Of a stretch of 64,000 nucleotides of DNA, positions 31,462 through 48,131 are shown one piece after another. The notes under the pieces were generated by a model. The model saw only the letters and a list, made by a program, of their open reading frames with translations, had not been told where the DNA came from and searched no databases. The stretch's first letter is position 1; every line of letters begins with the position of its first letter. A program made the position numbers and the translations under genes. This stretch comes from Brevundimonas vesicularis (GTDB lineage: Bacteria > Pseudomonadota > Alphaproteobacteria > Caulobacterales > Caulobacteraceae). The stretch covers positions 1,488,001 to 1,552,000 of the forward strand of contig NZ_CP114278.1 in the NCBI RefSeq assembly GCF_027105095.1, read 5' to 3'.

Positions 31462-33162
31462 ATGGCCCGTATCCTCATCACCTCGGCGCTGCCCTACATC
31501 AACGGCATCAAGCACCTGGGGAATCTGGCGGGCTCGATGTTGCCGGCCGACGTCTGGGCGCGGTTCAAGCGGGCCCAGGGGCATGAGGTCCTCTACATCT
31601 GCGCCACCGACGAGCACGGCACCCCGGCCGAGCTGGCCGCCGCCGCGGCCGGCCAGGATGTGCGCACCTATTGCGACGAGCAGCACGAAATCCAGAAGGC
31701 CGCGGGTCAGGCCTTCGGCCTCAGCTACGACTGGTTCGGCCGATCGTCGAACCCACAGAACCACCGGTTGACCCAGCATTTCGCCGAGGCGCTGGAGAAG
31801 AACGGCCTGATCGAGGAGCGGGTGGATCGGATGATCTATTCGATCGACGACGCGCGCTTCCTGCCCGACCGCTATGTCGAGGGAACCTGCCCTCACTGCG
31901 GCCATGTCGGCGCGCGCGGCGATCAGTGCGACAACTGCGGCCGCCTGCTGGACCCGACCGACCTGATCGATCCCTATTCGTCGGTGTCGGGGTCCAAGAA
32001 TCTGGAGGTGCGCGATACGCGTCACCTCTATCTGCTCCAGACCAAGATCGAGCCCGAGATCCGCGCCTGGGTCGACGGCAAGACGGGCTGGCAACAGTTG
32101 GCCAAGTCCATCGCCTACAAACATTTGGACGAGGGGCTGATCGACCGGGGCATCACCCGCGACCTGGCCTGGGGCGTGCCGGTGACCAAGGACGGCTTTC
32201 CGCGTCCCGGAATGGAGGACAAGGTCTTCTACGTCTGGTTCGACGCCCCCATCGAATACATCGCCGCGACCGAGGAATGGGCCGAGTCGACGGGCGGGTC
32301 ATGGCGTGACTGGTGGCGCCTGGACGAGGGGGCAGAGGACGTTCGCTATGTCCAGTTTATGGGCAAGGACAACGTCGCCTTCCACACCGTCAGCTTCCCC
32401 GCGACCATCATCGGCTCGGGCAAGCCGTGGAAGACGGTGGACCAGCTGAAGGCGTTCAACTGGCTGAACTGGTACGGCGGCAAGTTCTCCACCAGCCAAA
32501 AGCGCGGCGTCTTCATGGATCAGGCGCTGGAGCTGCTGCCCGCCGACTACTGGCGCTGGCGCCTGACGGCCTATGGGCCGGAGCACGCAGATTCGGCCTT
32601 CACCTGGGAGGACTTCCAGGCCTCGACCAACAAGGACCTGGCCGATGTGCTGGGCAATTTCGTCAACCGCATCGTCAAGTTCGCGGAATCCAAGTTCGAC
32701 GGCGTGGTGCCCGAGGGCGGCGAGGCCGGACCGGTCGAAATCCAGCTGGAGGCCGACATCAAGGCCGCCGTCGCCGAGGCGACCGAACAGCTGGAGGCGA
32801 TGGAGTTCAGAAAGGCCGCCGTCGCCATCCGCGCCGCCTGGGTGTTGGGCAACGAGTATTTGCAGGTCGCGGCGCCCTGGACGGCGCTGAAGACCGATCG
32901 CGACCGCGCGGCGGTCGGGGTGCGCACGGGGCTGAATCTGGTCGCCCTGTTCGCGCGTCTGGCCGCGCCGATCCTGCCCTTCACCGCGCCCAAGATCGCG
33001 GCGTCGGTTGGGGTGGAGGACCTGAGCTGGCCTGGCGCCGACGAAGATTTGCTGAACCGCCTGCCTGTGGGCGGCAAGGTCGAAGCTCAGGGCGTGCTGT
33101 TCGCCAAGATCGAGGACGCCCAGGTCGCGGAATGGTCCGACCGCTTCGGCGGCGCGGAGTAA
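31462..33162 (+). CDS. metG: methionyl-tRNA synthetase
   Basis: 566 residues. The class I signature is [15 protein letters not shown] (HIGH-like). A single zinc-knuckle [18 protein letters not shown] is inserted in the connective peptide, and the KMSKS-equivalent is FSTSQKR. An anticodon-binding helical domain follows (about 390-540). There is no C-terminal EMAP/dimerisation domain, consistent with this length. The enzyme charges tRNA-Met. It follows the MATE gene by 54 bases. Confidence 0.96.
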
Positions 33163-33227
33163 GCTCCACTCCGCTACCAATGCGTGGGATCGCGAGCGTA
33201 CTCGACTGATCCGACATTGGACGGCCC

Positions 33228-33263
33228 AAAGAACTGGGTCCCCGCTTTCGGGGGGATGAGCGG
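33228..33263. repeat. short palindromic repeat / possible terminator
   Basis: AAGAACTGGGTCCCCGCTTT followed by CGGGGGGATGAGCGG lies between the convergent metG and rhodanese genes. The CCCCG/CGGGG hairpin (33240-33253) with flanking CTGGGT resembles the widespread alphaproteobacterial element built around 'AAGCGGGGACCCAG' on the other strand. It probably serves as a bidirectional terminator. Only one copy is present in the window. Confidence 0.5.
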
Positions 33264-33265
33264 TA

Positions 33266-33601
33266 TTATTGTTCGGCGAACACGACCGGAAGCCCCGCCG
33301 CGTTCCAGGCCTGGATGCCGCCCGTCAGGTTGAACAGCGGCTGGCCCTCGGGGCCCGTCGGCCCGACGAAGGCGCAGACCTGGTGGCTGCGGCCGCCCTT
33401 CAGGCATTGGACGATGATCTTCTTGTCGGCCGGAAGGTCCAGCGCCTCCCAGGCGGCGGGCATCTGGCTGAGCGGGGCCAGAATCGCGCCGTCGATGCGG
33501 GCGGCGGCGAACTCGTCCGGCTCGCGCACATCGATCAGCACCGCTTCGCCGGCCTGCAGCCAGGCGGCGGCCTCTTCGACGGTGACGGTGGCGACGGTCA
33601 T
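33266..33601 (-). CDS. rhodanese-like domain protein
   Basis: 111 residues, a single rhodanese domain. Visible: EEAAAWLQAGEAVLIDVREP (CH2A region), the persulfide cysteine in IIVQCLKGGRS, and the C-terminal FNLTGGIQAWNAAGLPV. The loop has CLKGGRS where many sulfurtransferases have CxxGxR. Its ATG overlaps the TerC stop (4 bases), so they are cotranscribed. Sulfur carrier or detoxification roles are possible; the sequence does not decide. Confidence 0.92.
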   Translation of the reverse strand: MTVATVTVEEAAAWLQAGEAVLIDVREPDEFAAARIDGAILAPLSQMPAAWEALDLPADKKIIVQCLKGGRSHQVCAFVGPTGPEGQPLFNLTGGIQAWNAAGLPVVFAEQ

Positions 33602-34404
33602 GGCGCGACCGTCGGTTCAGCGGGCGCCGGCGTCGGGCTGTCCTCGGTGCGCTTCTGACCCAGGTGTTTGGCCGCTTCCTCGGGACCGATCTCAAGGAAG
33701 GCGGGGGCCGAGGCGTTGAACTCGTCCATATGGCCGGTGCGGACCACCACCTGACGGGCACCGTCCCAGATCATGTGCAGGGCGACATAAAGGACGACGA
33801 TCAGACCGATATAGCCGATCCAGCTGAAGCGATGCAGCAGCTTGGCGATATAGGTGGCGGCGACGCCCATCAGGGCGATCGACAGCACCAGGCCGAAGAC
33901 CATGATCCACGGGTGTTCGTGCGCAGCGCCGGCGACGGCCAGCACATTGTCCAGCGACATGGTGATGTCGGCGACCATGATCTGAATCAGGGCGGCGCCG
34001 AAGCTCTTGCGCTTGATTCCCAGTTCCTCGGGCGATGGACCAGAGCCGTGCTCGATGCTCATGGCCAGTTCGAGTTCCTTCTCGGCCTCGGCCTGATCGT
34101 GCGTCGCCTGCTCGCGCAGTTCGCGCCACATCTTCCAGCACACCCACAGCAGCAACAGGCCGCCGGCCAGCAGCAGGCCGACCAGGGCCAGAAGCTGCAC
34201 GGTGATCAGCGCAAAGCCGATTCGCATGACGACGGCGGCGGCCAGGCCGATCAGAATGGCCTTCTTGCGCTGGTCCTGGGGCAGGGCGGCGGCGGCCAGG
34301 CCCACGGCGACGGCGTTGTCGCCGGCCAGGACCAGATCCATCAGCAGGACCTGGCCCAGGGCCGTGGCCTGGCTGGCGAGTTCGGGAGACGAGAGGAATT
34401 CCAT
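33598..34404 (-). CDS. TerC/YjbE family integral membrane protein
   Basis: 268 residues. TerC signature: LLMDLVLAGDNAVAVGLAAA in the first half and its mirror ADITMSLDNVLAVAGAAHEH in the second, each with the conserved Asp-Asn. About seven TM segments are present, with a charged loop near 95-135. The C-terminal tail is Pro/Glu-rich. YjbE and related TerC proteins export Mn2+ in several bacteria. No yybP-ykoY (Mn) riboswitch is visible in the 30 bases between this gene and rlmB, so Mn control is not shown. Confidence 0.9.
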   Translation of the reverse strand: MEFLSSPELASQATALGQVLLMDLVLAGDNAVAVGLAAAALPQDQRKKAILIGLAAAVVMRIGFALITVQLLALVGLLLAGGLLLLWVCWKMWRELREQATHDQAEAEKELELAMSIEHGSGPSPEELGIKRKSFGAALIQIMVADITMSLDNVLAVAGAAHEHPWIMVFGLVLSIALMGVAATYIAKLLHRFSWIGYIGLIVVLYVALHMIWDGARQVVVRTGHMDEFNASAPAFLEIGPEEAAKHLGQKRTEDSPTPAPAEPTVAP

Positions 34405-34435
34405 TTCCGCTCCTTAGCCTCGGTGCGGCGTTCTG

Positions 34436-35320
34436 TCAGCCGCGTTGCGCGCGCGCCGCTTCATAAAGCGCGACCGCCGCCGCGTTGGACACGTTCAGAC
34501 TTTCAAATCCGCCCGGCATGGGGATCTTGGCCAGGACGTCGCAATGTTCGGCGACCAGACGACGAATGCCGTCGCCTTCGGACCCCATGACCAGAACGGT
34601 CGGCTGATGATCCAGCGCTTCTTCCAGCGTCTGTTCGCCCGTTCCGTCCAGCCCGACCGCGCGCCAGCCCAGATCGGCCAGCCGCTCCAGCGCACGGGAC
34701 AGATTCGTGACGCGCGCATGGGGCAGGCGTTCGGTGGCGCCGACGGCCGCCTTGGCCAGGGCGCCCGCCAGGGCCGGAGCATGACGGTCCTGAACGATGA
34801 TCCCCCGCGCGCCGAACGCCAGGGCCGATCGGAAGATGGCGCCGACGTTCTGGGGGTCGGTCAGCTGATCCAGCATGACGATGACGCCCTCAGCCGGCTC
34901 GGCCAGCTCTTCCAGCGACACGCCTTCCAGCGGCTGGACCTTGAAGGCCAGTCCCTGATGCACGGCGCCGGGGGGCAGCATACGGGTCAGGGTCGGGATA
35001 TCGACCACCTCGATCCTGTGGCCGTTTGCGAGAGCATTGTTCTCGATCTCGGCGGCGCGCTCGGCCGTGGCCAGCAGACGACCCATGCCGCGACGGGCGG
35101 GATTCGCCAGAGCGGCCAGAACCGGGTGGCGCCCCCACAGAAAATTATCGGCGTCCGACTTGCCCCGATCGGGCGAACGGGGCTGCCGAGGGGTTTCCTC
35201 GCGCCGGCCAAACCCTTGCGCAGCGGGCTTTTGACCCTTGTCGCGGGGGCCGTCGGGACGGTTTCCGAAGACCGGTTTTTTACCGCTTTTACGGTCGTTG
35301 CGTTCTGATTTCGACGACAC
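34436..35320 (-). CDS. rlmB: 23S rRNA (guanosine-2'-O)-methyltransferase RlmB/TrmH family
   Basis: 294 residues from GTG 35320 (VSSKSERNDRKSGKKPVFG); an in-frame ATG at 35350 would add 10 residues. A Lys/Arg-rich disordered leader of about 55 residues precedes the substrate-binding domain, which starts LWGRHPVLAALANPARRGMG. The SPOUT catalytic motifs are present: LTDPQNVGAIFRSALAFGA (motif 1), VLVMGSEGDGIRRL (motif 2) and SLNVSNAAAVALYEA (motif 3). It methylates G2251-equivalent of 23S rRNA; some family members methylate tRNA. Divergent from the tRNA genes. Confidence 0.92.
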   Translation of the reverse strand: MSSKSERNDRKSGKKPVFGNRPDGPRDKGQKPAAQGFGRREETPRQPRSPDRGKSDADNFLWGRHPVLAALANPARRGMGRLLATAERAAEIENNALANGHRIEVVDIPTLTRMLPPGAVHQGLAFKVQPLEGVSLEELAEPAEGVIVMLDQLTDPQNVGAIFRSALAFGARGIIVQDRHAPALAGALAKAAVGATERLPHARVTNLSRALERLADLGWRAVGLDGTGEQTLEEALDHQPTVLVMGSEGDGIRRLVAEHCDVLAKIPMPGGFESLNVSNAAAVALYEAARAQRG

Positions 35321-35469
35321 TATAAGACGCCCTCCGATTTGGAGCCCCAAGGGCTTTCGGGTCTGGGCGCCCCCTCTATCCTAGAGGAGGCGACAAGCCG
35401 AAGGCTTTTGTTTCGTCCCGCTTCTTTATGGGCGGAAACGAGGGGTCCGACGGTTCGACAAGGCGCGCT

Positions 35470-35553
35470 GGGGGAATGTCCCGAGCGGCAAAGGGGGGGG
35501 ACTGTAAATCCCCTGCGTAAGCTTCGAAGGTTCGAGTCCTTCTTCCCCCACCA
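35470..35553 (+). tRNA. tRNA-Tyr (GTA)
   Basis: Acceptor stem GGGGGAA (35470-35476) pairs with TTCCCCC (35543-35549); A is the discriminator and CCA is encoded. The anticodon GTA is at 35504-35506, in ACTGTAAAT. A long class II variable arm and the T-loop TTCGAGT (GGTTCGAGTCC) are present. The encoded size is 84 bases, normal for tRNA-Tyr. Confidence 0.96.
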
Positions 35554-35634
35554 CGCGCCTTGACGGATACGACGGATCAGGACGACGGAGAGGAACCGGC
35601 TGCGGCGTTCCGAAAGAACTTCCGCAGTCTCCGC

Positions 35635-35708
35635 GCGGGTATAGCACAATGGTAGTGCAGCAGCCTTCCAAGCTGAGGATGTCGGTTCGATCCCGTCTAC
35701 CCGCTCCA
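35635..35708 (+). tRNA. tRNA-Gly (TCC)
   Basis: Acceptor stem GCGGGTA (35635-35641) pairs with TACCCGC (35698-35704); T is the discriminator and CCA is encoded. The anticodon loop CTTCCAA gives anticodon TCC (35667-35669), and the T-arm is GGTTCGATCCC. It lies 81 bases after tRNA-Tyr and 64 bases before tuf, the common tRNA-Tyr, tRNA-Gly, tuf arrangement, so all may share one transcript. Confidence 0.96.
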
Positions 35709-35772
35709 GGTTTTTAAAAAGATCAGCATCGCGCCCCTCCGCTGACGGACCCGGGCCATCAGGAGTTTGGCC

Positions 35773-36963
<1,191 letters not shown>

Positions 36964-37032
36964 GCTAAAACGGCCTCAAGCCGCGCGCCTCCGCGAGGCG
37001 CGCATCGGCCGAAAGACAAAGTCGCGTAACAG

Positions 37033-37064
37033 AACGGCCTCCGGAGCAATCCGGGGGCCGTTTT
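37033..37064 (+). terminator. intrinsic terminator of tuf
   Basis: AACGGCCTCCGGA and TCCGGGGGCCGTTTT form a stable imperfect stem with a GCAA loop, followed by a four-T run. It is about 70 bases past the tuf stop. Nothing else is seen in the rest of the 37065-37217 gap. Confidence 0.85.
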
Positions 37065-37217
37065 GCTGTGCGGGCTATCTTTCAGGCCTGGCCAGAGGGC
37101 GCTGTTAAAGTGCCGAATTCGACCGGGTTGCGCCGCAGGCCAAGGCCTCCGGTCTCCGTGGCGCGGTCCGACCTGAAATGCGGGGCAGTCCCAAAGAACG
37201 AGTCCGGGGCGGACAGC

Positions 37218-38105
37218 CTAGTTTTCGGCGTTGACCAGGTTGCGCACACGAGGCGGCGCGGGCGGCGTGGGGGCTGCGCGGACGATGCGGATCGAACTGC
37301 TGCGGCAGGCCTGGGGCGAGAGGCGGCCGGGCAGGCGTGTGGAGCCGTCGCCGCAGGCCTCGCTGATCTGGTCTTGCGTCAGGCCTCGCGCGCCCGACAG
37401 GTCGGCGCCGCGAATGTCGGTTCGACGCAGCGAGGCGTTGGAGAAGTCGGCGCGCGAGAAGCTGCCGCCGGTCAACCGCGCCCCATCCAGGCTGGCGTTC
37501 GAAAAGTCCGCGTTGGAGAAATCGCCGCCCGAAAGGTTCGAGGCTGTGACCTCGGCGCTGGCGAAGTTGGCGCCCGACGCCCGGACATTGGCCAGTGTGG
37601 CGCCGAACAGCTCCGAGTTGGAGAAGTTGGTTCCGGCCAGAGTGGCGCCGGTGAAGTTGACGCCGTGCATCTCGCTGCCCGAAAGGTTGGCGCGGGTCAG
37701 GTTGGCGCGAACAAAGGACGATCCTTGCGCCTCGGCGCCGTTGATTTGCGCCCCGGTGAAGTTGGCGGAGGTGAAGTTGGCGCCGACGATCTCGACGCCG
37801 CCCATGTTGGCGCGGCTGAAATCACTGCCGGTGAAGTTGGAGCCCATCATCTCGGCGCCGCGCAGATTGGCGCCGACCAGGGTGGCGTTCATGAAGCTGG
37901 CGCCGGTGAAGGTGGCGCCCGACAGATTGCGGCCGGACAGTTCGCAGCGATTGCACGATCCGCCCAGCGACACCGAACGGGCCACGTCGCGGTCCTGCAT
38001 CGACATCTCGACCCCGGCGAAGGCGGGCGAGGCGGCGAGCGCCAGTCCCAGCGTCAGCAGGGCCAATGTGGGGCGGACACGGATATGTTCAGCGATCTGT
38101 TTCAC
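37218..38105 (-). CDS. secreted pentapeptide-repeat protein
   Basis: 295 residues with a signal peptide (MKQIAEHIRVRPTLALLTLG, cleavage after AFA). The mature protein starts with a cysteine pair (GGSCNRCEL) followed by about 35 pentapeptide units of A(D/N)LXX type (for example ANLRGAEMMGSNFTGSDFSR), which form a right-handed beta-helix. It then ends with GLTQDQISEACGDGSTRLPG and a Pro/Arg tail. Function unknown. The neighbour at 38187 is a shorter paralogue with the same cysteine pair and the same 'GLTQ..ACGDGST.LP' C-terminal motif. Confidence 0.9.
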   Translation of the reverse strand: MKQIAEHIRVRPTLALLTLGLALAASPAFAGVEMSMQDRDVARSVSLGGSCNRCELSGRNLSGATFTGASFMNATLVGANLRGAEMMGSNFTGSDFSRANMGGVEIVGANFTSANFTGAQINGAEAQGSSFVRANLTRANLSGSEMHGVNFTGATLAGTNFSNSELFGATLANVRASGANFASAEVTASNLSGGDFSNADFSNASLDGARLTGGSFSRADFSNASLRRTDIRGADLSGARGLTQDQISEACGDGSTRLPGRLSPQACRSSSIRIVRAAPTPPAPPRVRNLVNAEN

Positions 38106-38186
38106 GCACTCTGAATGCCTCGAAACCCCCGCCGCACCTACTTAAATCGAGGTAACTTCATGAAATCGAGGCAAGGTCGGCGCCGC

Positions 38187-38678
38187 TCAGCAGGCCGGAA
38201 TGCGAAGACCGCGCGGCAGGACGGTGGAGCCGTCGCCGCACGCTTGGTTCAGTTGGCCCTGAGTCAGGCCGGTGGCTCGTGCCAGCTGGGCGCCCGACAG
38301 ATTGGTCCCCGACAGGGTCGCGCCGGCAAAGCTAGCGCCTTCGAGATAGGCGCCGACGAAGCTGGCGTTGGTCAGGTTGGCGCGCGAGAAGTTCGAGCCC
38401 GAGAAAACGCCGCCATAGGCTTCGACATCACGCATGTCGGTGTTGGAGAAGCGCGTGCGGTTCATCACCGAAAGGCTGAGATCCGCCTGACGCAGGCGTG
38501 AGCCGGCCAGGTTCAGGCCGCGCGCCTCTAGCCCCGAAAAGTCACCCTGAAAAAGATTGCAACCGGCGCAGGAGGCGCCGCTCCGCACGCTGGCGATCTG
38601 ACCCGCGTTCTGGGCCAGCGCCGGCGCGGCGACGGCCAGCAGGGCGGCGATCAGGCCGAGGGAAAGTGTGCGTTTCAT
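38187..38678 (-). CDS. secreted pentapeptide-repeat protein (short paralogue)
   Basis: 163 residues with signal peptide MKRTLSLGLIAALLAVAAPA ending ALAQ. The mature protein begins with GASCAGCNLFQGDFSGLEAR, a cysteine pair equivalent to that in the paralogue at 37218. About 15 pentapeptide units follow, and the end is GLTQGQLNQACGDGSTVLPR. The two genes are tandem on the same strand, 81 bases apart, and are clearly an old duplication. Function unknown; the family includes gyrase-protecting proteins, but these two carry signal peptides and so are probably periplasmic. Confidence 0.9.
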   Translation of the reverse strand: MKRTLSLGLIAALLAVAAPALAQNAGQIASVRSGASCAGCNLFQGDFSGLEARGLNLAGSRLRQADLSLSVMNRTRFSNTDMRDVEAYGGVFSGSNFSRANLTNASFVGAYLEGASFAGATLSGTNLSGAQLARATGLTQGQLNQACGDGSTVLPRGLRIPAC

Positions 38679-38735
38679 GGACCGGGCTCCGACGTTTGAT
38701 CGTCTGTCAGCAAACCCTAGGCCATAACCCTTAAC

Positions 38736-41279
38736 CTAGCCCTGATCGCCGCCCTTCAGCGCCGGGGCCGCCCCGCAGGTGTCGCACACCCAGGCGGCGC
38801 CGCGTTGCTGCAGGCTGAAATCGCCGCAGGCGGGGCAGGCGACGGCCTCGCTGTTGGCGGCGGCGCGAGCCTCTGGATCGCCTTTCTTGCCAAAGGGCAG
38901 GACGACCAGATTGTCGGGCGCGGAACCGCGCGCAAATCCCTTGGAGATGAAGCGGGCGGCGGGCACGGCCGCGTTGGCGTCAGGCTTTCCGTCGCCCAGA
39001 TCGTCGGGGTTCTGCGCCTCCGTCTCGGCGTTGGCCAGTTCAGCGCGTTCCAGATAGGAGACGCCCAGTTCGCGGAAGATGTAGTCCAGGATCGAGGTCG
39101 CCGACTTGATGGAATCGTTGCCGGTGACGCGGCCGGCGGGCTCGAACCGGGTGAAGACGAAGGCGTCCACGAACTCGTCCAGCGGCACACCGTATTGCAG
39201 GCCGATCGAGATGGCGATGGCGAAGTTGTTCATCAGGCTGCGGAAGGCGGCGCCTTCCTTGTGCATGTCGATGAAGATTTCGCCGAGCTCGCCGTCTTCG
39301 TATTCGCCAGTGTGGATATAGACCTTGTGGCCCCCGACGGCGGCCTTCTGGATGTAGCCCTTGCGCCGGTCGGGCAGTTTGCGGCGCGCGCGTTCGCGCT
39401 CGACCACGCGTTCGACGACCCGTTCCGTCGGAGCCGGGCGGGGCGCTTCGCGGGCCGGCTCTGGGCGGCCAATCTCGGGGCGGGCGGTGTCGAGCGACGG
39501 CAGCGATAGCAACGGTCCCGCTGGCGGTGCCGCGCGGAACAGGCGAAGGGCCCGTCGGCCGTCCAGCGCGCCCTGGCTCAGCAGGCGCGCGGCCTGGGTC
39601 GAGGTCGTGCGCCAGTCCATCGGTTCGATGGCGATGTCCGGCATGTCGCTGAACGGTTCGACGGCGCGCCGCAGGTCGGCCGCCGCCGCCGCCGGATCGG
39701 CCAGCAGGGCGGCGACGGACGCCGGCGCCTCGGGCCAGTCGCGCAGATCGCCATGACCGAAGACCCAGCGCGTCGCCGCCGTCTCCGCCTCTTCGGACAC
39801 GCCCAGCAGGGTCAGCAGCAGACCGTCGCCGTCCTCTACGCCCAGGACGTCGCGGATGAAGCCGGGGTCAAGGACAGGGGCGGCGAAGACCGTGTCGAAA
39901 TCCTCGGCCCAGCCCAGGGCGGTCTCGATGGCGGCCAGTTCGATGTCGGTGAAGCCCAGCGCGCGCAAGGCTGTATGGTCGATGCCTGGCGCCTCGACCA
40001 GGGTGCGACGACCGAACGTCCACCGTTCCGCCGCCTCCACATCGCCGCCGGCGGCGGAGATGGCCGTGGCGAGCGCGGGATGCAGCCGGCGACCGATCTC
40101 CCCGTCCGCGGTCTGGAACACGTCGACTGCCGCGACGCGGCCCAGGCCCAGCCGCAGCCGCGCCTCAGCATCCTCGACGAACAGGCCGATGGCCGAATGG
40201 CGACGCGGCTTCTCCGGGTCTTCCCAGTCGGGGCAAGGACCGCGCAGGGTGGCCAGTTCGGCCGAGGTCTGCGCCGCCGTCGCCGCGATCAGGCCCACGA
40301 GCGCCTGCGCCTGATCCATGCGGTCGTCGCTGGCCGCCAGAGCGTCCAGCAGACCGTCCAGTCCCAGCGCGATGGGACCAGGCCGGGCGGACTGAAGGTC
40401 CAGCGCCACGGTCAGCAGGCGGGTCATATCCGCCAGATCGGTCGCTGTGTCTCCGTCAAGCGCCAGGACGGCGCCTAGATCGATCAAAGCCCGCGCGGTC
40501 TGCGCCGTCGCGGTCTCCGCATCGCGCGGGTCGAAGGCGACGATCAGCCCGCCGTCCAGCGCCGCTTCGGCCGCCAGCAGGGCTTCGGGCGCGCCCGCCG
40601 CGATCTGGGTGCGGTCCGCTAGGGCGACCAAAGGCGCGCCTTCGACCATAGGCTCCAGGGCCATTGCGGGCCGTTCGCCGTCGATCGCTCTCAGGATATC
40701 GGCGTCGCTCGCGCCGCACCGCCGCGCCAAAGCCGCCGCCCGGCCCAGGGCCGGATTGCGCGAAGGGTCGCCGCAGTCGCCGCGAGGACCTTCGCAGCGA
40801 TCCACCGCATCGGCCACGCCGGCCAGCGCTTCGGCCAAGGCGTCGGCCGCCTGGGCCCCCAGACGCAGGGCCGCGCGCCGTCCGGCGTGCGCTTTCAAAC
40901 GCGCGGCCGCGCCGGGGTCGTTCAGATCGACGACGCCGACGGCCGCAGGGCCAGACGCCGCCGGCGCCGCCAGGCCCAGCCTGAAGGCGCCCGACAGCTC
41001 CTCGACGAACGCGGCGGCCTCGGCCCGGTCGAACACGCCCTCGGCCACGCCCGTCGCCGCCAGCCGCTCGGCCCAGGCGTCGGCGCCGCCATTCAGCCAG
41101 TCGCCGGACAGGGGCGTTGCGAACCCTTCCGCCTCGACCCAATCCAGCCAGGCCTCGATCCGGACGTCGGACCAGCCGGCGGGGGCCAGGACCTGCTGCA
41201 CGCCGGCGGGGCGCTCGATGGCGCGGGTCTCCATCGCGACTCGGTCGGCGCGAGCGGCGAAGCCGGATTGAAAGCGCAT
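38736..41279 (-). CDS. degenerate class II ribonucleotide reductase-like protein (NrdJ paralogue)
   Basis: 847 residues from ATG 41279 ([20 protein letters not shown]). Residues 634-745 match the C-terminal TSCPD domain of B12-dependent ribonucleotide reductase Nrd[41 protein letters not shown] and [19 protein letters not shown] terminal CPAC...CDTC pair (815-818, 832-835) matches the NrdJ redox/zinc end. Upstream pieces also recall Nrd[15 protein letters not shown] (167-180), [13 protein letters not shown] (299-311) with TSAELA (338-343), and [10 protein letters not shown] (440-449). No NPCSE catalytic-cysteine motif is present. The family normally has about 1200 residues. It looks like a catalytically dead paralogue of unknown role. 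Confidence 0.8.
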
Positions 41280-41485
41280 GGCGGCGTCTCTCGGAAAGGT
41301 TCGGGCGAGCCTAGGATGCGCACGCGGCTTAGCCAATACATCTGGTGTCGCTGGGCGGGGTTGCCCACAAGATATCGATTCACCGCCAGGCGCTTGAACG
41401 CTGGACGAAGAGGGCGCGGGTTTCTATGATCCGACCCAGACGCCGCCTCCCTTTCCGGCGACCCCTTACGGTTGGATTCCACGAC

Positions 41486-41878
41486 GTGTTGAGCAAGATT
41501 TTCGGCTGGTGGGAGGGCGCCACGATCGGCACCCGGTTCACCATCGCCAAGCGCGGTCGCTTCGTCGGCCAGGACGAGAACGGCAATCGCTATTACGAGA
41601 GCCGCGACAACGTCAGCTACGACGGCCGCAAGCGTCGGTGGGTCATCTATGACGGCTATGCCGAGGCGTCCAAGGTGACGCCCGACTGGCACGGCTGGCT
41701 GCACTACACCTTCGACCTGCCGCCGACCGAGCAGCCGCTGCCGCGTCGCGCCTGGGAAAAGGATCATCTGCCCAATCTGACCGGCACGCCTCTGGCCTGG
41801 CGTCCGCCCGGCTCGCTGGCGGGCGACGCCAAGCGCCCGGCCGCGACCGGCGACTATCAGGCCTGGATGCCCGAGTGA
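41486..41878 (+). CDS. NDUFA12-family complex I accessory subunit
   Basis: 130 residues from GTG 41486, giving MLSKIFGWWEGATIGTRFTI, the conserved start of the alphaproteobacterial/mitochondrial NDUFA12 (B17.2) family; in-frame ATGs at 41345 and 41426 would add residues that do not fit. The core GQDENGNRYYESRD and RRWVIYDGYAEASKVTPDWH then GWLHYTFD are family signatures. It is an accessory subunit of NADH:ubiquinone oxidoreductase, found only in alphaproteobacteria and mitochondria. The next gene overlaps its stop by 4 bases. Confidence 0.93.
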   Translation: MLSKIFGWWEGATIGTRFTIAKRGRFVGQDENGNRYYESRDNVSYDGRKRRWVIYDGYAEASKVTPDWHGWLHYTFDLPPTEQPLPRRAWEKDHLPNLTGTPLAWRPPGSLAGDAKRPAATGDYQAWMPE

Positions 41879-42528
41879 AAATCCGCCGCATCCTGTTGGG
41901 CGCGGCGTCCGTCGCGGCTGTGCTGAGCGCCGGTGCGGTGACCGCCAGCGTGCTTCAGGACGCGCCGCGCGATGCGCGTCCGGTTCAGGATCCGATCGGC
42001 GACATTCTGCGCACCACCCCGACCCAGCCCTCGGTCCCGACCGAGACGCCGCCCGCGGGCGCGCCCGCGCCTCGAGCGCCCGTCGCGGTAACCCCGCCGC
42101 CGGCCGTAGTGATCGCCGAGGACGCCGCCGTCGAGGAAAAGGCCGAGGAAGAGGTCAAGGCCGAAAAGCCGGTCGCGGAGAAGGCCGTCGATCAACCCGC
42201 CACGCCCGCGCGCCGTCAGCGTCGCAAGTTCGCGATCATCCAGGCCATCGACAAGGTCACCGCCGAGACGATGAAGTTCGAGGTCGAGGTCGGCGGTCGT
42301 CCCGTGCGCTTCAACCAGAATCTGATCTTCGCCGCCCGCGCCTGCGAGGTCACGACGCCCGACGAACTGACCGAGGACGCCATCGCCTATATGGACGTCT
42401 CGCTTCAGCCGCGCGGCCGCCAGGCAGGACGCCAGATCTTCCGCGGCTGGATGTTCGCTTCGTCACCCGCCGTCAGCGGGGTCCAGAACCCCTATTACGA
42501 CGCCTGGGTCGTGGGGTGTAAGAACTGA
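41875..42528 (+). CDS. DUF2155 domain protein, exported
   Basis: 217 residues from GTG 41875, translationally coupled to the preceding gene (GTGA). The N-terminal segment MKIRRILLGAASVAAVLSAG is a signal or anchor. A Pro/Glu-rich linker (about 30-115) precedes the DUF2155 domain (117-217: AIIQAIDKVTAETMKFEVEV, LIFAARACEVTTPDELTEDA, GWMFASSPAVSGVQNPYYDA). Two conserved cysteines (in RACEV and the final GCKN) may form a disulfide. The DUF2155 gene beside NDUFA12 is a conserved alphaproteobacterial pairing; its function is unknown. Confidence 0.9.
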   Translation: MKIRRILLGAASVAAVLSAGAVTASVLQDAPRDARPVQDPIGDILRTTPTQPSVPTETPPAGAPAPRAPVAVTPPPAVVIAEDAAVEEKAEEEVKAEKPVAEKAVDQPATPARRQRRKFAIIQAIDKVTAETMKFEVEVGGRPVRFNQNLIFAARACEVTTPDELTEDAIAYMDVSLQPRGRQAGRQIFRGWMFASSPAVSGVQNPYYDAWVVGCKN

Positions 42529-42554
42529 GCTTTGACGCCGCGAGGAGGCGCGCC

Positions 42555-42893
42555 ATGGATCGCAACAAGCCGCCCAAGAAGACCGAAACGGTCGAAATCC
42601 GACTGCCCCACGCGACCAAGACCGCCTTCATGGCCCGGTGCCGTGACCAAGGCCGGACGGCCAGCGACGCCATTCGCCGCTTCATCGACGCCGAGTTGAA
42701 CACGACGTCATCCGCGCGTCCTCAACCCCGCCTGAGCTGGCGGCCCCTGCTGGCCGCCGCCGTCGCGGGCCTGGCGCTCGGCGCCGTCGCCGCGCCCTCC
42801 CTGGCCCAGTCGTCGCCCACCCGCGCCGATTTCGACCGGCTGGATCGCAATCACGACGGCGTCGTCAGCTTCGAAGAGTACCGCGCGCGTTAG
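42555..42893 (+). CDS. RHH-like domain / TM / EF-hand protein
   Basis: 112 residues from ATG 42555, preceded by GAGGAGG. Residues 11-48 (TVEIRLPHATKTAFMARCRD, then QGRTASDAIRRFIDAEL) have the strand-helix-helix pattern of ribbon-helix-helix DNA-binding proteins. Residues 64-84 are a hydrophobic segment, LLAAAVAGLALGAVAAPSLA, ending with a signal-peptidase-like SLA. Residues 97-108 are a canonical EF-hand loop with D97, N99, D101, V103, S105 and E108. So a DNA-binding motif appears to be tethered to the membrane with a calcium-binding loop on the far side. Function unknown; the pairing is unusual. Confidence 0.8.
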   Translation: MDRNKPPKKTETVEIRLPHATKTAFMARCRDQGRTASDAIRRFIDAELNTTSSARPQPRLSWRPLLAAAVAGLALGAVAAPSLAQSSPTRADFDRLDRNHDGVVSFEEYRAR

Positions 42894-43654
42894 CGGATGC
42901 GGACCAGGAATCGGTCCCACTGAAGGTCTAACCACGTCCAGGGTTTGAACAGGCTGGCGCCCGGCTTCCAGGACGCCAGCACCACCTCGGCCCGGCCGAT
43001 GATGTTCTCGGCCGGCAGCAGGCCGACGCCAATCTCGGGCGGCCAGCGGCTGTCCAACGAGTTGTCGCGGTTATCGCCCATCATCAGATAGTGGCCAGCC
43101 GGCACACGGCGCACAGGCGTGTCGTCGCCCGGCAGGTCCGGCCCGCCGTCGTAGGTGACGTAGGATCGTCCGTCGGCCAGGGTCTCGCGCACCTGCTGGA
43201 CCCGTCGCTGCGGCGCATCGTGATCGGCGACCACATCCAGTCGGGTCTGGCGCACCGGATCGCCATTGACGAACACTACGCCGCCCCGCACCTCGACCGT
43301 GTCGCCCGGCAGGCCGACGACGCGCTTGATCCAGGCCTCGCTGGGATCGCGCGGCAGGCGGAACACCGCGACGTCGCCGCGTCTTGGCTCGCGCCCCAAC
43401 AGCCGTCCCGGCGACATCGCCGGATTGAACGGCAGAGACGCCGTGCTCCAGCCATAGGGATATTTCGACACGACGATATAGTCGCCGGTCACCAGCCCCG
43501 GCTCCATCGACGACGAGGGGATGGTGAAGGGTTGGAACAGCACGATGCGGATCGCGAGCGCCAGGATGATGGCGAAGATCAGCGTCAGGGCGATCTCTCG
43601 CACCTCGCGAAGAAGGGACGGGCGGGGCGGGGCTTTTGGCGGGGTCTGTGTCAT
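42890..43654 (-). CDS. lepB: signal peptidase I
   Basis: 254 residues from ATG 43654. A TM segment (about 19-40: EIALTLIFAIILALAIRIVL) precedes the catalytic serine motif IPSSSMEPGL (Ser49 region). The catalytic lysine is in WIKRVVGLPGD, and the C-terminal box is YLMMGDNRDNSLDSR. It cleaves signal peptides on the periplasmic side of the inner membrane. The stop faces the RHH/EF-hand gene, with a 4-base convergent overlap. In relatives lepB is usually followed by rnc and era; those are not here, so this may be a second copy. Confidence 0.96.
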   Translation of the reverse strand: MTQTPPKAPPRPSLLREVREIALTLIFAIILALAIRIVLFQPFTIPSSSMEPGLVTGDYIVVSKYPYGWSTASLPFNPAMSPGRLLGREPRRGDVAVFRLPRDPSEAWIKRVVGLPGDTVEVRGGVVFVNGDPVRQTRLDVVADHDAPQRRVQQVRETLADGRSYVTYDGGPDLPGDDTPVRRVPAGHYLMMGDNRDNSLDSRWPPEIGVGLLPAENIIGRAEVVLASWKPGASLFKPWTWLDLQWDRFLVRIR

Positions 43655-44409
43655 GCCGCCATTGACCGCCGGGCCGGGCGAAGACGCCAATCCTAAGCTG
43701 TCGGGACAGGCCCCGAATTGTGTCCGGACAGACTAGGCGCTGGCTAAGGCGACCGCTTCTGCGCCGGTCAGGGGTGCGCGCAACGCGCCTTGGTCCGGTC
43801 TGACCGACAGCGCGGGCTGAAGTCGCTCAAGATAGGTCGCTTGCGGCGTTTCAACCGCACCGAACTGGCTGAGATGGTCGGTCAGGAACTGGGCGTCCAG
43901 CAGGGTCCAGCCGCCCTTTCGCAGGCGCGCGACTAGATGCACTAGTGCGACCTTGGAGGCGTCCCGCTCGCGGCTGAACATGCTCTCGCCGAAGAACGCC
44001 CCGCCCAGCGACACGCCGTAAAGGCCGCCCACCAGCCGCTCGTCACGCCAGCACTCGATGGAATGGACGAAGCCCATGGCGAACAGGGCGGCGTACAGCC
44101 GCCGGATCGGGCCGTTGATCCAGGTGTCTTCGCGATCCGGCCCTTGCGCCGCCGCGCATCCATCCAGCACCGCCTCGAAGGCGGTATCGACCCGCACCTC
44201 GAACGGCTCGCCCCGCACGGTGCGGCGCAGGCGGCAGGGGATGTGGAAGGCGTCCAGCGGAATGACGCCGCGCTGTTCCGGCTCGATAATGAAGACGCGC
44301 GGATCATCGCGCGCCTCGGCCATCGGAAACACGCCCCTGGCGTAACAGGCCAGCAGGTCCTCGGGGCCGAAACCGCCGAAAGGCCCGCTGGCGCTGAAAT
44401 CGGGGTCGG

Positions 44410-45762
<1,353 letters not shown>

Positions 45763-45765
45763 GGC

Positions 45766-46257
45766 TTAGGCTTCCAGCAGGACGAGGGGTTCGCCGAACT
45801 CGACCGGCTGGGCATCGCCGACCAGGATTTCGGCCACAACCCCGTCGCGCGGGGCCTGGATCGGGTTCATCGTCTTCATGGCTTCGACGATCAGCAGGGT
45901 TTGGCCCTTCTTGACCTTGTCGCCGGGCTGGACGAAGGCCGGAGCCTCCGGCGAGGCCTGCAGATAGGCGGTGCCGACCATCGGCGACTTCACCTCTTCG
46001 CCGGCGCGGGCGACGATGGTGGCGGGATCCGACGGCATGGCGGCCGGCGCAGCAGCAGCGGCGGGCGCAGCGGCGACCGGAGCGGGGGCGGCGGCGTACT
46101 GAACCGGGGCGGCGTTGACGGTGACTTCGCGCGCCACGCGGATGCGCAATTCGCCGCGCTCGACCTCGACTTCCGTCAGATCGGTCTCGTTCAGGATCTC
46201 GGCCAGCTGGCGAACCAGTGCGGCGTCGATTTCGGCGTGTTTCTTGTCATCGGCCAT
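45766..46257 (-). CDS. accB: biotin carboxyl carrier protein AccB
   Basis: 163 residues. A helical N-terminus (AALVRQLAEILNETDLTEVE, VERGELRIRVARE) is followed by a Pro/Ala linker (about 52-85) and the biotinyl domain SPMVGTAYLQASPEAPAFVQ. The biotinylated lysine is in LIVEAMKTMNPIQA. It carries the carboxyl group from AccC to the carboxyltransferase. It lies 47 bases downstream of aroQ, on the same strand. Confidence 0.98.
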   Translation of the reverse strand: MADDKKHAEIDAALVRQLAEILNETDLTEVEVERGELRIRVAREVTVNAAPVQYAAAPAPVAAAPAAAAAPAAMPSDPATIVARAGEEVKSPMVGTAYLQASPEAPAFVQPGDKVKKGQTLLIVEAMKTMNPIQAPRDGVVAEILVGDAQPVEFGEPLVLLEA

Positions 46258-46304
46258 TGGAGTTGCGCCTTGTCTTTCGTGGTCTTTGATAAACGGGACG
46301 GGGC

Positions 46305-46751
46305 TTAGCCGCGTTCCCGAACCTGGGTGAGGGCCGCCTGGACGGCCAGTTCATAGCCCGCCGCGCCGAAGCCGGCGATGACGCCGGTCGCCGCGGAGGA
46401 CACATAGGAGTGATGGCGAAACGCCTCGCGCGCCGCCGGATTGGACAGATGCAGTTCGATCACCGGGATCGACAGCGTCTTCAGGGCATCGTGCAGCGCC
46501 ACCGACGTATGCCCGTAGGCCGCCGGATTGAGGATAAGGGCGTCGGCGCCCTCGCGCGCCTCCTGGATCCAGTCGACCAGCACCCCTTCATGGTTGGTCT
46601 GGCGAAACACGATCTGCGCCTTGCCGGCCGCCCGGACGCAGCGCTGCTCGATGTCCGCCAGGGTGTCGCGGCCATAGATGTCCGGCTCCCGAACCCCGAG
46701 CAGGTTCAGATTGGGGCCGTTCAGCACATGAATGACGGGCGTTTCGGCCAT
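46305..46751 (-). CDS. aroQ: type II 3-dehydroquinate dehydratase
   Basis: 148 residues from ATG 46751, the family norm. It has [18 protein letters not shown] with the catalytic tyrosine, [27 protein letters not shown] and the late VIELHLSN. It dehydrates 3-dehydroquinate to 3-dehydroshikimate in aromatic amino acid synthesis. It is the first gene of the aroQ-accB-accC group; its upstream neighbour thiS is divergent. Confidence 0.97.
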
Positions 46752-46937
46752 GGTTCCAGAATCGATCCGGCGCAGCGCGGCGCAAGAGGGGCCTTTTAGC
46801 GGACGCAGGGCGTGGGTCAAACGCTCGCGGCGTTGAACCTTACCCAAGGTCACCGGGCCGGCGCAGCGCGGTCTGGCGATCCGATCCTTCAGTCGCTATC
46901 TGAAAGGTCGCGCCGACAACGCCGAGAGACCCGACCG

Positions 46938-47138
46938 ATGCACCAGATCCATCTCAACGGCGAGCCGCGCCAGGTTCGAGCCGCCACCATCCTGGCCCTG
47001 GTCGAAGAGCTGTCGCTGGACCCGCGCAAGGTCGCCGTCGAACGCAATCTCGAGATCGTGCCCAAGTCCCTTCATGCCGCTACGCCGGTGGCCGCAGGCG
47101 ACCGTATCGAACTGGTCCAGTTCGTCGGCGGCGGGTGA
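46938..47138 (+). CDS. thiS: thiamine biosynthesis sulfur carrier protein
   Basis: 66 residues from ATG 46938. The beta-grasp sequence [20 protein letters not shown], then [14 protein letters not shown] and [13 protein letters not shown], fits ThiS, with the C-terminal Gly-Gly that becomes a thiocarboxylate. It donates sulfur to ThiG for thiazole formation. ThiG lies 61 bases downstream. No TPP riboswitch was recognised upstream. Confidence 0.95.
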
Positions 47139-47199
47139 TCCGATCAAATCGGGCTACGACGGGTTCCCCCGCGCGCCGGAGAGGCCTAGGTCAGCATCC

Positions 47200-47982
47200 A
47201 TGACTGATACAGCCAACGAAACCTGGTCCGTCGCCGGCCGCACCTTTAACTCGCGACTGATCGTGGGCACCGGCAAATATGCCGACTACGCCCAGAACGC
47301 CGCCGCCGCCGAGGCGGCCGGGGCCGAGATCGTCACTGTCGCGGTGCGCCGTGTGAACCTGTCGGATCCGACCCAGCCGATGCTGGTCGATTATGTGAAG
47401 CCGGATCGCTTCACCTTCCTGCCCAACACCGCCGGCTGTTTCACGGGCGAGGACGCGGTGCGGACCCTGCGCCTGGCGCGCGAGGCGGGGGGATGGAGTC
47501 TGGTCAAGCTGGAGGTGCTGTCCAACACCGCCCACCTGTATCCCGACATGATCGAGACGCTGCGGGCGCTGGAACTGCTGATCAAGGACGGGTTCGACGT
47601 CATGGTCTATTGCACCGACGACGTGGTGATGGCCAAGCGGCTGGAGGACGCCGGGGCCGCCGCCATCATGCCCGCCGCCGCCCCGATCGGCTCGGGCCTG
47701 GGCATCCAGAACGAGGTCAACGTCCGCCTTATCGTCGAACAGGCCAAGGTGCCGGTTCTGGTCGACGCGGGCGTCGGCACGGCCTCGGACGCGACCCGCG
47801 CGATGGAACTGGGTTGCGACGCCGTCCTGATGAACACCGCCATCGCCGGGGCCAAGGATCCCATCCGCATGGCCCGCGCCATGAAACACGCCGTCATCGC
47901 CGGCCGCGACGCCTATCTGGCCGGGCGGATGGCCAAGCGGATGTATGCGGACCCGTCGTCGCCGCTGGCGGGACTGATCTGA
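47200..47982 (+). CDS. thiG: thiazole synthase
   Basis: 260 residues from ATG 47200. TIM-barrel signatures: [54 protein letters not shown], the Schiff-base lysine in [22 protein letters not shown] and [20 protein letters not shown]. It joins deoxyxylulose phosphate, dehydroglycine and ThiS sulfur into the thiazole of thiamine. thiO/thiH and thiE are not in the window. Confidence 0.97.
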
Positions 47983-47989
47983 TCCAACC

Positions 47990-48131
47990 GTCTCCTCCCC
48001 GCTTTGCGGGGAGGGGGACCGCGAAGCGGTGGAGGGGCTCTTGACGTCCCACAGAGGTCGGGGATGCGCGAAGAGCCCCTCCGTCTCTCCGCTGCGCTTC
48101 GAGCCACCTCCCCATGACATGGGGAGGAGAC
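47990..48131. repeat. palindromic intergenic repeat (142 bp)
   Basis: Terminal inverted repeats GTCTCCTCCCC (47990-48000) and GGGGAGGAGAC (48121-48131) match perfectly. An inner pair, GGAGGGGCTCTT (48031-48042) and AAGAGCCCCTCC (48071-48082), also matches perfectly, so the whole folds into one long hairpin. It resembles the multi-copy palindromic elements of Caulobacterales genomes but differs from the one at 26409. It follows thiG and may stop its transcript. Confidence 0.85.

Follow-up and report, generated by a model that had tools for sequence, protein, structure and literature searches.

The analysed window, a stretch of 64,000 nucleotides from Brevundimonas vesicularis, carries on its reverse strand a whole gene (38736..41279, ATG at 41279) for an 847-aa protein, P0001, which appears to be a non-catalytic descendant of the class II B12-dependent ribonucleotide reductase (RNR) NrdJ. 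Profile-profile alignment with hhalign gave end-to-end homology to NrdJ (E 1e-137), and the NrdJ equivalog model NF005736 matched P0001 in four stretches (2e-96) with 323.8 bits, below its curated cut-off of 1737 bits. A barrel remnant spans residues 64-590 (39510..41090), as delimited by hhalign, the AF2 model, VIA-align and distances; Pfam detects the barrel only below threshold (residues 301-356, E 0.12), and the AF2 model retains the class II RNR barrel fold according to VIA-align. Near residue 114 (40935..40940) lies a junction where about 155 NrdJ residues, including the HACFI motif, are gone (hhalign, motif counts), and residues about 248-262 (40494..40538) mark the hhalign site of the missing NPCSE finger loop with the thiyl cysteine and, after it, the second redox cysteine. 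The TSCPD block, near-invariant by dN/dS and identity, occupies residues 631-750 (39030..39389), with the PF12637 match at residues 648-738 (E 4.5e-10, 40.1 bits vs a gathering score of 22.8). Apart from a C-terminal zinc-ribbon-like CxxC...CxxC found by motif counts (residues 815-838, 38766..38837), the tail cysteines of NrdJ are absent. All of these features lie on the reverse strand.

The original prediction had described a class II RNR remnant without its catalytic core, and the end-to-end homology and vanished catalytic motifs bear it out. It had placed NrdJ-like segments at residues 634-745 and at the terminal CPAC...CDTC. Aligned to the profile, the upstream blocks come in the same order as in NrdJ; the NF005736 model has 1222 positions, and P0001 falls short of it by 375 residues (about 350 had been proposed). 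Neither the profile alignment nor motif counts recover NPCSE. The alternative of a simple TSCPD fusion with an unrelated front part was rejected, since residues 1-600 are RNR-related by hhalign and model fold.

The catalytic motifs were counted in 30 full NrdJ proteins and 60 short relatives, including L039 and L046, which are truncated at the 5' side by a contig end. NPCSE was found in 30/30 full and 0/60 short proteins, as were HACFI together with the cysteine following NPCSE, which we take to be the first and second members of the active-site redox pair, and the terminal GCS, presumably the shuttle cysteine; the tail CxxC..CxxC is present in all full NrdJ and in 50 of the 60 short proteins. 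No barrel cysteine is invariant in the 58-row alignment of short proteins, the commonest columns (162 and 169) being occupied in 49/58. Residues 162 and 169 of P0001 form a C-x6-C pair that falls at no cysteine position conserved in full NrdJ. All 60 short loci examined are open frames of 680-1165 aa (two end at a contig edge). Judged by these motifs, P0001 has probably lost reductase activity.

The divergent neighbour on the forward strand (41426..41878, with the start codon assigned inside ORF 41345-41878) is, by its sequence, presumably an NDUFA12 homologue and serves as a marker of the nrdJ locus. It adjoins the gene in 29/30 Brevundimonas, 19/30 other Caulobacteraceae, 13/30 full NrdJ and 8/15 other decayed loci, where the flanks searched extended no more than 1.5 kb from the match and in some cases ended before NDUFA12 could be reached; it is also partly visible beside a full NrdJ (L224). 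The neighbour is common to loci with short, full and TSCPD-only genes, which shows, on gene order, that the P0001 gene is nrdJ, still where it usually lies, and that it decayed there into a predicted pseudoenzyme. Downstream of the gene, two reverse-strand frames (37218-38105 and 38187-38678) encode proteins that by eye resemble pentapeptide-repeat proteins; relatives of these flank 30/30 Brevundimonas loci and many other Caulobacteraceae loci.

Whole-gene dN/dS is 0.159 (NG86, 45 pairs among 10 close Brevundimonas). By residues, it amounts to 0.021 at 631-750, 0.089 at 361-482, 0.399 at 301-360 and 0.11-0.27 elsewhere, and the TSCPD block of 29 other Brevundimonas loci is on average 97.4% identical to that of P0001. 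The ratio of barrel to TSCPD distances is 2.04 in full NrdJ (n=30), 8.88 in short proteins (n=58) and 6.33 in non-Brevundimonas short proteins (n=28); the barrel remnant thus diverges faster than the barrel of full NrdJ. Selection on a non-catalytic role, as originally predicted, gains support from the TSCPD value. The accompanying picture of a conserved tail beside a freely diverging front holds for the tail only: with dN/dS of 0.09-0.40, residues 1-610 are, on these alignments, under weaker purifying selection and not in free divergence.

Distribution of decayed NrdJ in Alphaproteobacteria

P0001 has matches in 120 of 131 Brevundimonas genomes. Among the 120 listed of 344 protein matches, the names are mostly Brevundimonas, and the annotations include 'TSCPD domain-containing protein', 'ribonucleoside-diphosphate reductase alpha chain' and 'Vitamin B12-dependent ribonucleotide reductase'. 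Within the Caulobacteraceae, 298/299 genomes match NF005736 at E<=0.001, class I nrdA being counted in, and about 281/299, by a reading of the table, match at <=1e-40 with a partial NrdJ; none of the 299 exceeds the model cut-off. The cut-off is exceeded in 148 of 241 genomes across the class Alphaproteobacteria. The 30 non-Brevundimonas Caulobacteraceae loci examined (L033-L062) were the best-scoring ones. A scan of at least 80 named loci found NPCSE in 0/20 titled Caulobacterales, a partial test for L168 and L170-L172, whose 5' parts are missing, and in 58 of the 60 others, no frame having been read in L182 and L215. Full NPCSE-bearing NrdJ occurs on contigs titled Pelagibacteraceae (L224), Hellea (L202) and Euryhalocaulis (L227). 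Eleven Brevundimonas genomes have no match, and the five most complete of these (L235-L239, 2.5-2.9 Mb) show a clean deletion between NDUFA12 and the pentapeptide gene, with a best P0001 trace of E 0.28; the gene is therefore dispensable in those genomes.

Among 19 further alphaproteobacterial genomes chosen for intermediate NrdJ scores, 15 have an NPCSE-less NrdJ relative and four have other RNR types only. TSCPD is retained in families f2, f9, f23, f34, f84, f85 and f131. Families f89, f99 and f104 (five loci: L094, L100, L101, L102 and L104) keep NPCSE-less barrel remnants and have lost TSCPD, so TSCPD is not always the retained part; tandem NrdR-type boxes are present at L100, L101, L102 and L104, and L102 has a stray NTCDE that is not in its sister L104. 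The decayed NrdJ of genome G508 is cut in L096 and whole in L240 (812 aa, no N.C.E), and the frames of L095 and L105 run off the locus edge at their 5' ends. Genome G541 holds two similar decayed copies on two contigs (L095, L112). A separate smaller RNR with NPCGE was seen in L114 (G508) and L108 (G587); in G508, which belongs to the same order as the window, it exists alongside the decayed NrdJ.

SAR11 bacteria are among the most abundant marine bacteria. The f9 and f84 forms consist of TSCPD only, without barrel (272-278 aa); such remnants were observed at L097, L098, L099 and L103, in genomes of 1.2-1.4 Mb. In the SAR11-type protein, about 53 residues at the N-terminus are strongly conserved, and its model reaches a pLDDT of about 90 over residues 100-210 (62-row alignment), with no significant PDB relative found for the TSCPD fold. 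Searching with the f84 protein gave at least 8000 matches (E<=0.001, within the allowed length), which need not all come from SAR11. Identity is 86% or more among the 120 listed, whose lengths are 273-292 aa. P0125 of Candidatus Pelagibacter, 98% identical to the SAR11-type P0242 (274 aa), is named ribonucleotide reductase.

A TSCPD tree was built from 67 rows after dropping identical rows and the duplicates L132, L143 and L147; it is also without rows missed by the selection pattern, among them L105, L146 and L149. The catalytic/decayed label changes five times on this tree (bootstrap 5-5), and at least three of the changes are forced by well-supported branches. To judge from the tree, catalysis is lost several times within the Alphaproteobacteria. 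SAR11 falls among the Caulobacterales on a long branch, a placement that is possibly an artefact. The TSCPD residues 643 I and 656 H, which told the 60 short proteins apart from the 30 full ones and are shared by the SAR11-type L099 and L103, were rejected as a convergent mark of lost catalysis because NPCSE-bearing proteins of the wider sample have both (L146, L149, L185, L201, L202, L224, L227).

Putative NrdR-type boxes and other ribonucleotide reductases

Upstream of the P0001 gene, two 16-bp NrdR-type boxes lie in tandem on the reverse strand: box 1, AATCGATATCTTGTGG (41365..41380), and its partner box 2, ACACCAGATGTATTGG (41333..41348), 32 bp away, within the 31-33 bp used for the search. 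The box consensus and spacing are taken here as assumptions. Loci with at least 100 upstream bases were compared with 100 dinucleotide shuffles, and tandem boxes reached p<=0.05 in 30/30 Brevundimonas, 23/28 other Caulobacteraceae, 22/30 full NrdJ and 5/13 other decayed loci, counts that are not independent since related loci share ancestry. The test failed at the other 8 of the 13 decayed loci, and the SAR11-type L099 and L103 have no tandem box (p 0.71 and 0.20). These upstream patterns support the view that the P0001 gene is still switched together with dNTP synthesis through the putative boxes.

Other RNR genes had been suggested to exist elsewhere in the genome, and class I nrdA (C1:245455-247047, the sole TIGR02504 matches), nrdB (C1:261908-262720) and an ATP-cone NrdR-like gene (C1:1978535-1978795) were indeed located. 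In the whole nrdA locus the best box pair (p 0.016) sits 44-90 bp ahead of the likely ATG, and in the nrdB locus (p 0.03) it is directly upstream; no tandem pair was found in the nrdR locus. P0001 is probably expressed together with the class I RNR, and NrdAB probably supplies the dNTPs. The single ATP cone of the genome sits in the 167-aa NrdR-like frame, hence the class I nrdA is cone-less. One cone each was found in 9/9 genomes searched, including five Brevundimonas without the P0001 gene; replacement of the ATP cone by P0001 finds no support, since cone-less genomes also exist without the gene.

Proposed role and competing explanations

We favour, with a probability of roughly 60%, a selected pseudoenzyme that is expressed with dNTP synthesis and serves as a binding or regulatory module by way of its TSCPD domain. 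By sequence, nrdJ no longer encodes the thiyl-radical finger loop, the redox pair of the active site or the shuttle cysteine at the C-terminus; its barrel has stayed on as scaffold, and TSCPD is almost frozen. In this scenario, the pseudoenzyme would be made along with the dNTP synthesis machinery, class I NrdAB would produce the dNTPs, and P0001 would serve dNTP supply via TSCPD. TSCPD may dock on a conserved partner, a guess for which the class I RNR subunits, the replication machinery and a nucleotide or nucleic-acid ligand are the first candidates. On this reading the TSCPD function is separable from RNR chemistry, for which the TSCPD-only proteins speak, and the conservation of this C-terminal domain in Caulobacter relatives and SAR11 suggests that it has a job of its own. 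The broader proposal stands at about even odds: the TSCPD of alphaproteobacterial NrdJ would be a moonlighting module for dNTP supply or replication, independent of ribonucleotide reduction and kept by Caulobacter and SAR11 when class I RNR takes over and the enzyme dies.

If the protein were a remnant in slow decay, functionless beyond harmless folding, and its TSCPD seemed frozen only because it had always been slow, this could explain the clean deletion in five Brevundimonas, a barrel rate that, measured against TSCPD, is 3-4 times that of full NrdJ, and the families f89, f99 and f104 that dropped TSCPD instead. We consider it improbable given the dN/dS values for the whole gene and TSCPD, the open frames at all 60 short loci, upstream boxes conserved across genera and the retention of TSCPD-only forms in genomes of 1.2-1.4 Mb. 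Continued action as an RNR, either as a subunit of a hetero-oligomer or by thiyl chemistry via another cysteine, is very hard to reconcile with catalytic cysteine motifs at 0/60, a barrel without a cysteine common to all 58 short proteins and the finding that TIGR02504, searched against the same genome, matched the class I nrdA locus only, even though the model keeps a predicted barrel fold, NrdR-type boxes lie upstream and PMC6538847 names C. crescentus CCNA_01966 NrdJ, under nucleotide reduction.

The barrel could alternatively bind cobalamin or a nucleotide and signal through the TSCPD tail to a partner, and selection on the barrel remnant (residues 361-482) would fit such a sensor; it is nevertheless unlikely, as the f9 and f84 forms have no barrel and no Rfam riboswitch reached its gathering score within 33000-48000. 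A role linked to the divergent NDUFA12 in complex I assembly, and not to dNTPs, would agree with the pairing seen at full, short and TSCPD-only forms. Such a role is improbable: NDUFA12 remains where the P0001 gene is deleted, and the promoter has NrdR-type boxes.

Under the pseudoenzyme reading, the protein annotated as B12-dependent ribonucleotide reductase in Caulobacter species, their relatives and SAR11 is very probably not one, and inferences of B12 demand change if the annotated NrdJ of these bacteria is a non-reductase. The natural split of TSCPD from catalysis provides a clean genetic handle, making the TSCPD role directly testable in C. crescentus. In this species dNTP pools and nrdR affect cell-cycle timing: in the portion available of PMC12186491, elevated dNTPs and nrdR deletion alter Caulobacter behaviour and cell-cycle timing, with NrdJ unmentioned there. 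Nor is nrdJ mentioned in the available part of a treatment of NrdR regulons (PMC5343134), and PMC5869019 lists CCNA_01966 as an RNA co-purifying with GsrN. The available parts of PMC12816887 and PMC10547690 hold nothing bearing on decayed NrdJ, and the word TSCPD occurs in PMC10907483 (methanol oxidation) and in a medical paper. None of the titles and abstract openings searched, few of them from subscription journals, describes an NrdJ without catalysis or assigns a function to TSCPD.

Comparison with known systems

P0001 resembles class II B12-dependent NrdJ (NF005736; 7b9p and 7b9q of Rhodobacter sphaeroides) in its end-to-end homology, barrel, TSCPD, NDUFA12 neighbour and NrdR-type boxes, but differs by its shorter chain, a score far below the cut-off and the loss of the NPCSE loop, the redox cysteines and the terminal GCS. 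The Caulobacter loci L155-L157 are short and NPCSE-less like P0001, and the Caulobacter vibrioides control genome stays below the NrdJ cut-off. For C. crescentus CCNA_01966, to which PMC6538847 assigns nucleotide reduction, the comparison with P0001 is by name.

The SAR11-type P0242 shares with P0001 the TSCPD block and the NDUFA12 homologue alongside; unlike P0001, it has no barrel, possesses its own conserved N-terminal segment and shows no detectable tandem NrdR-type boxes. To our knowledge, no function of its own has been described for the TSCPD domain (PF12637), which in P0001 scores above its gathering cut-off and, in distinction to its known setting, outlives catalysis.
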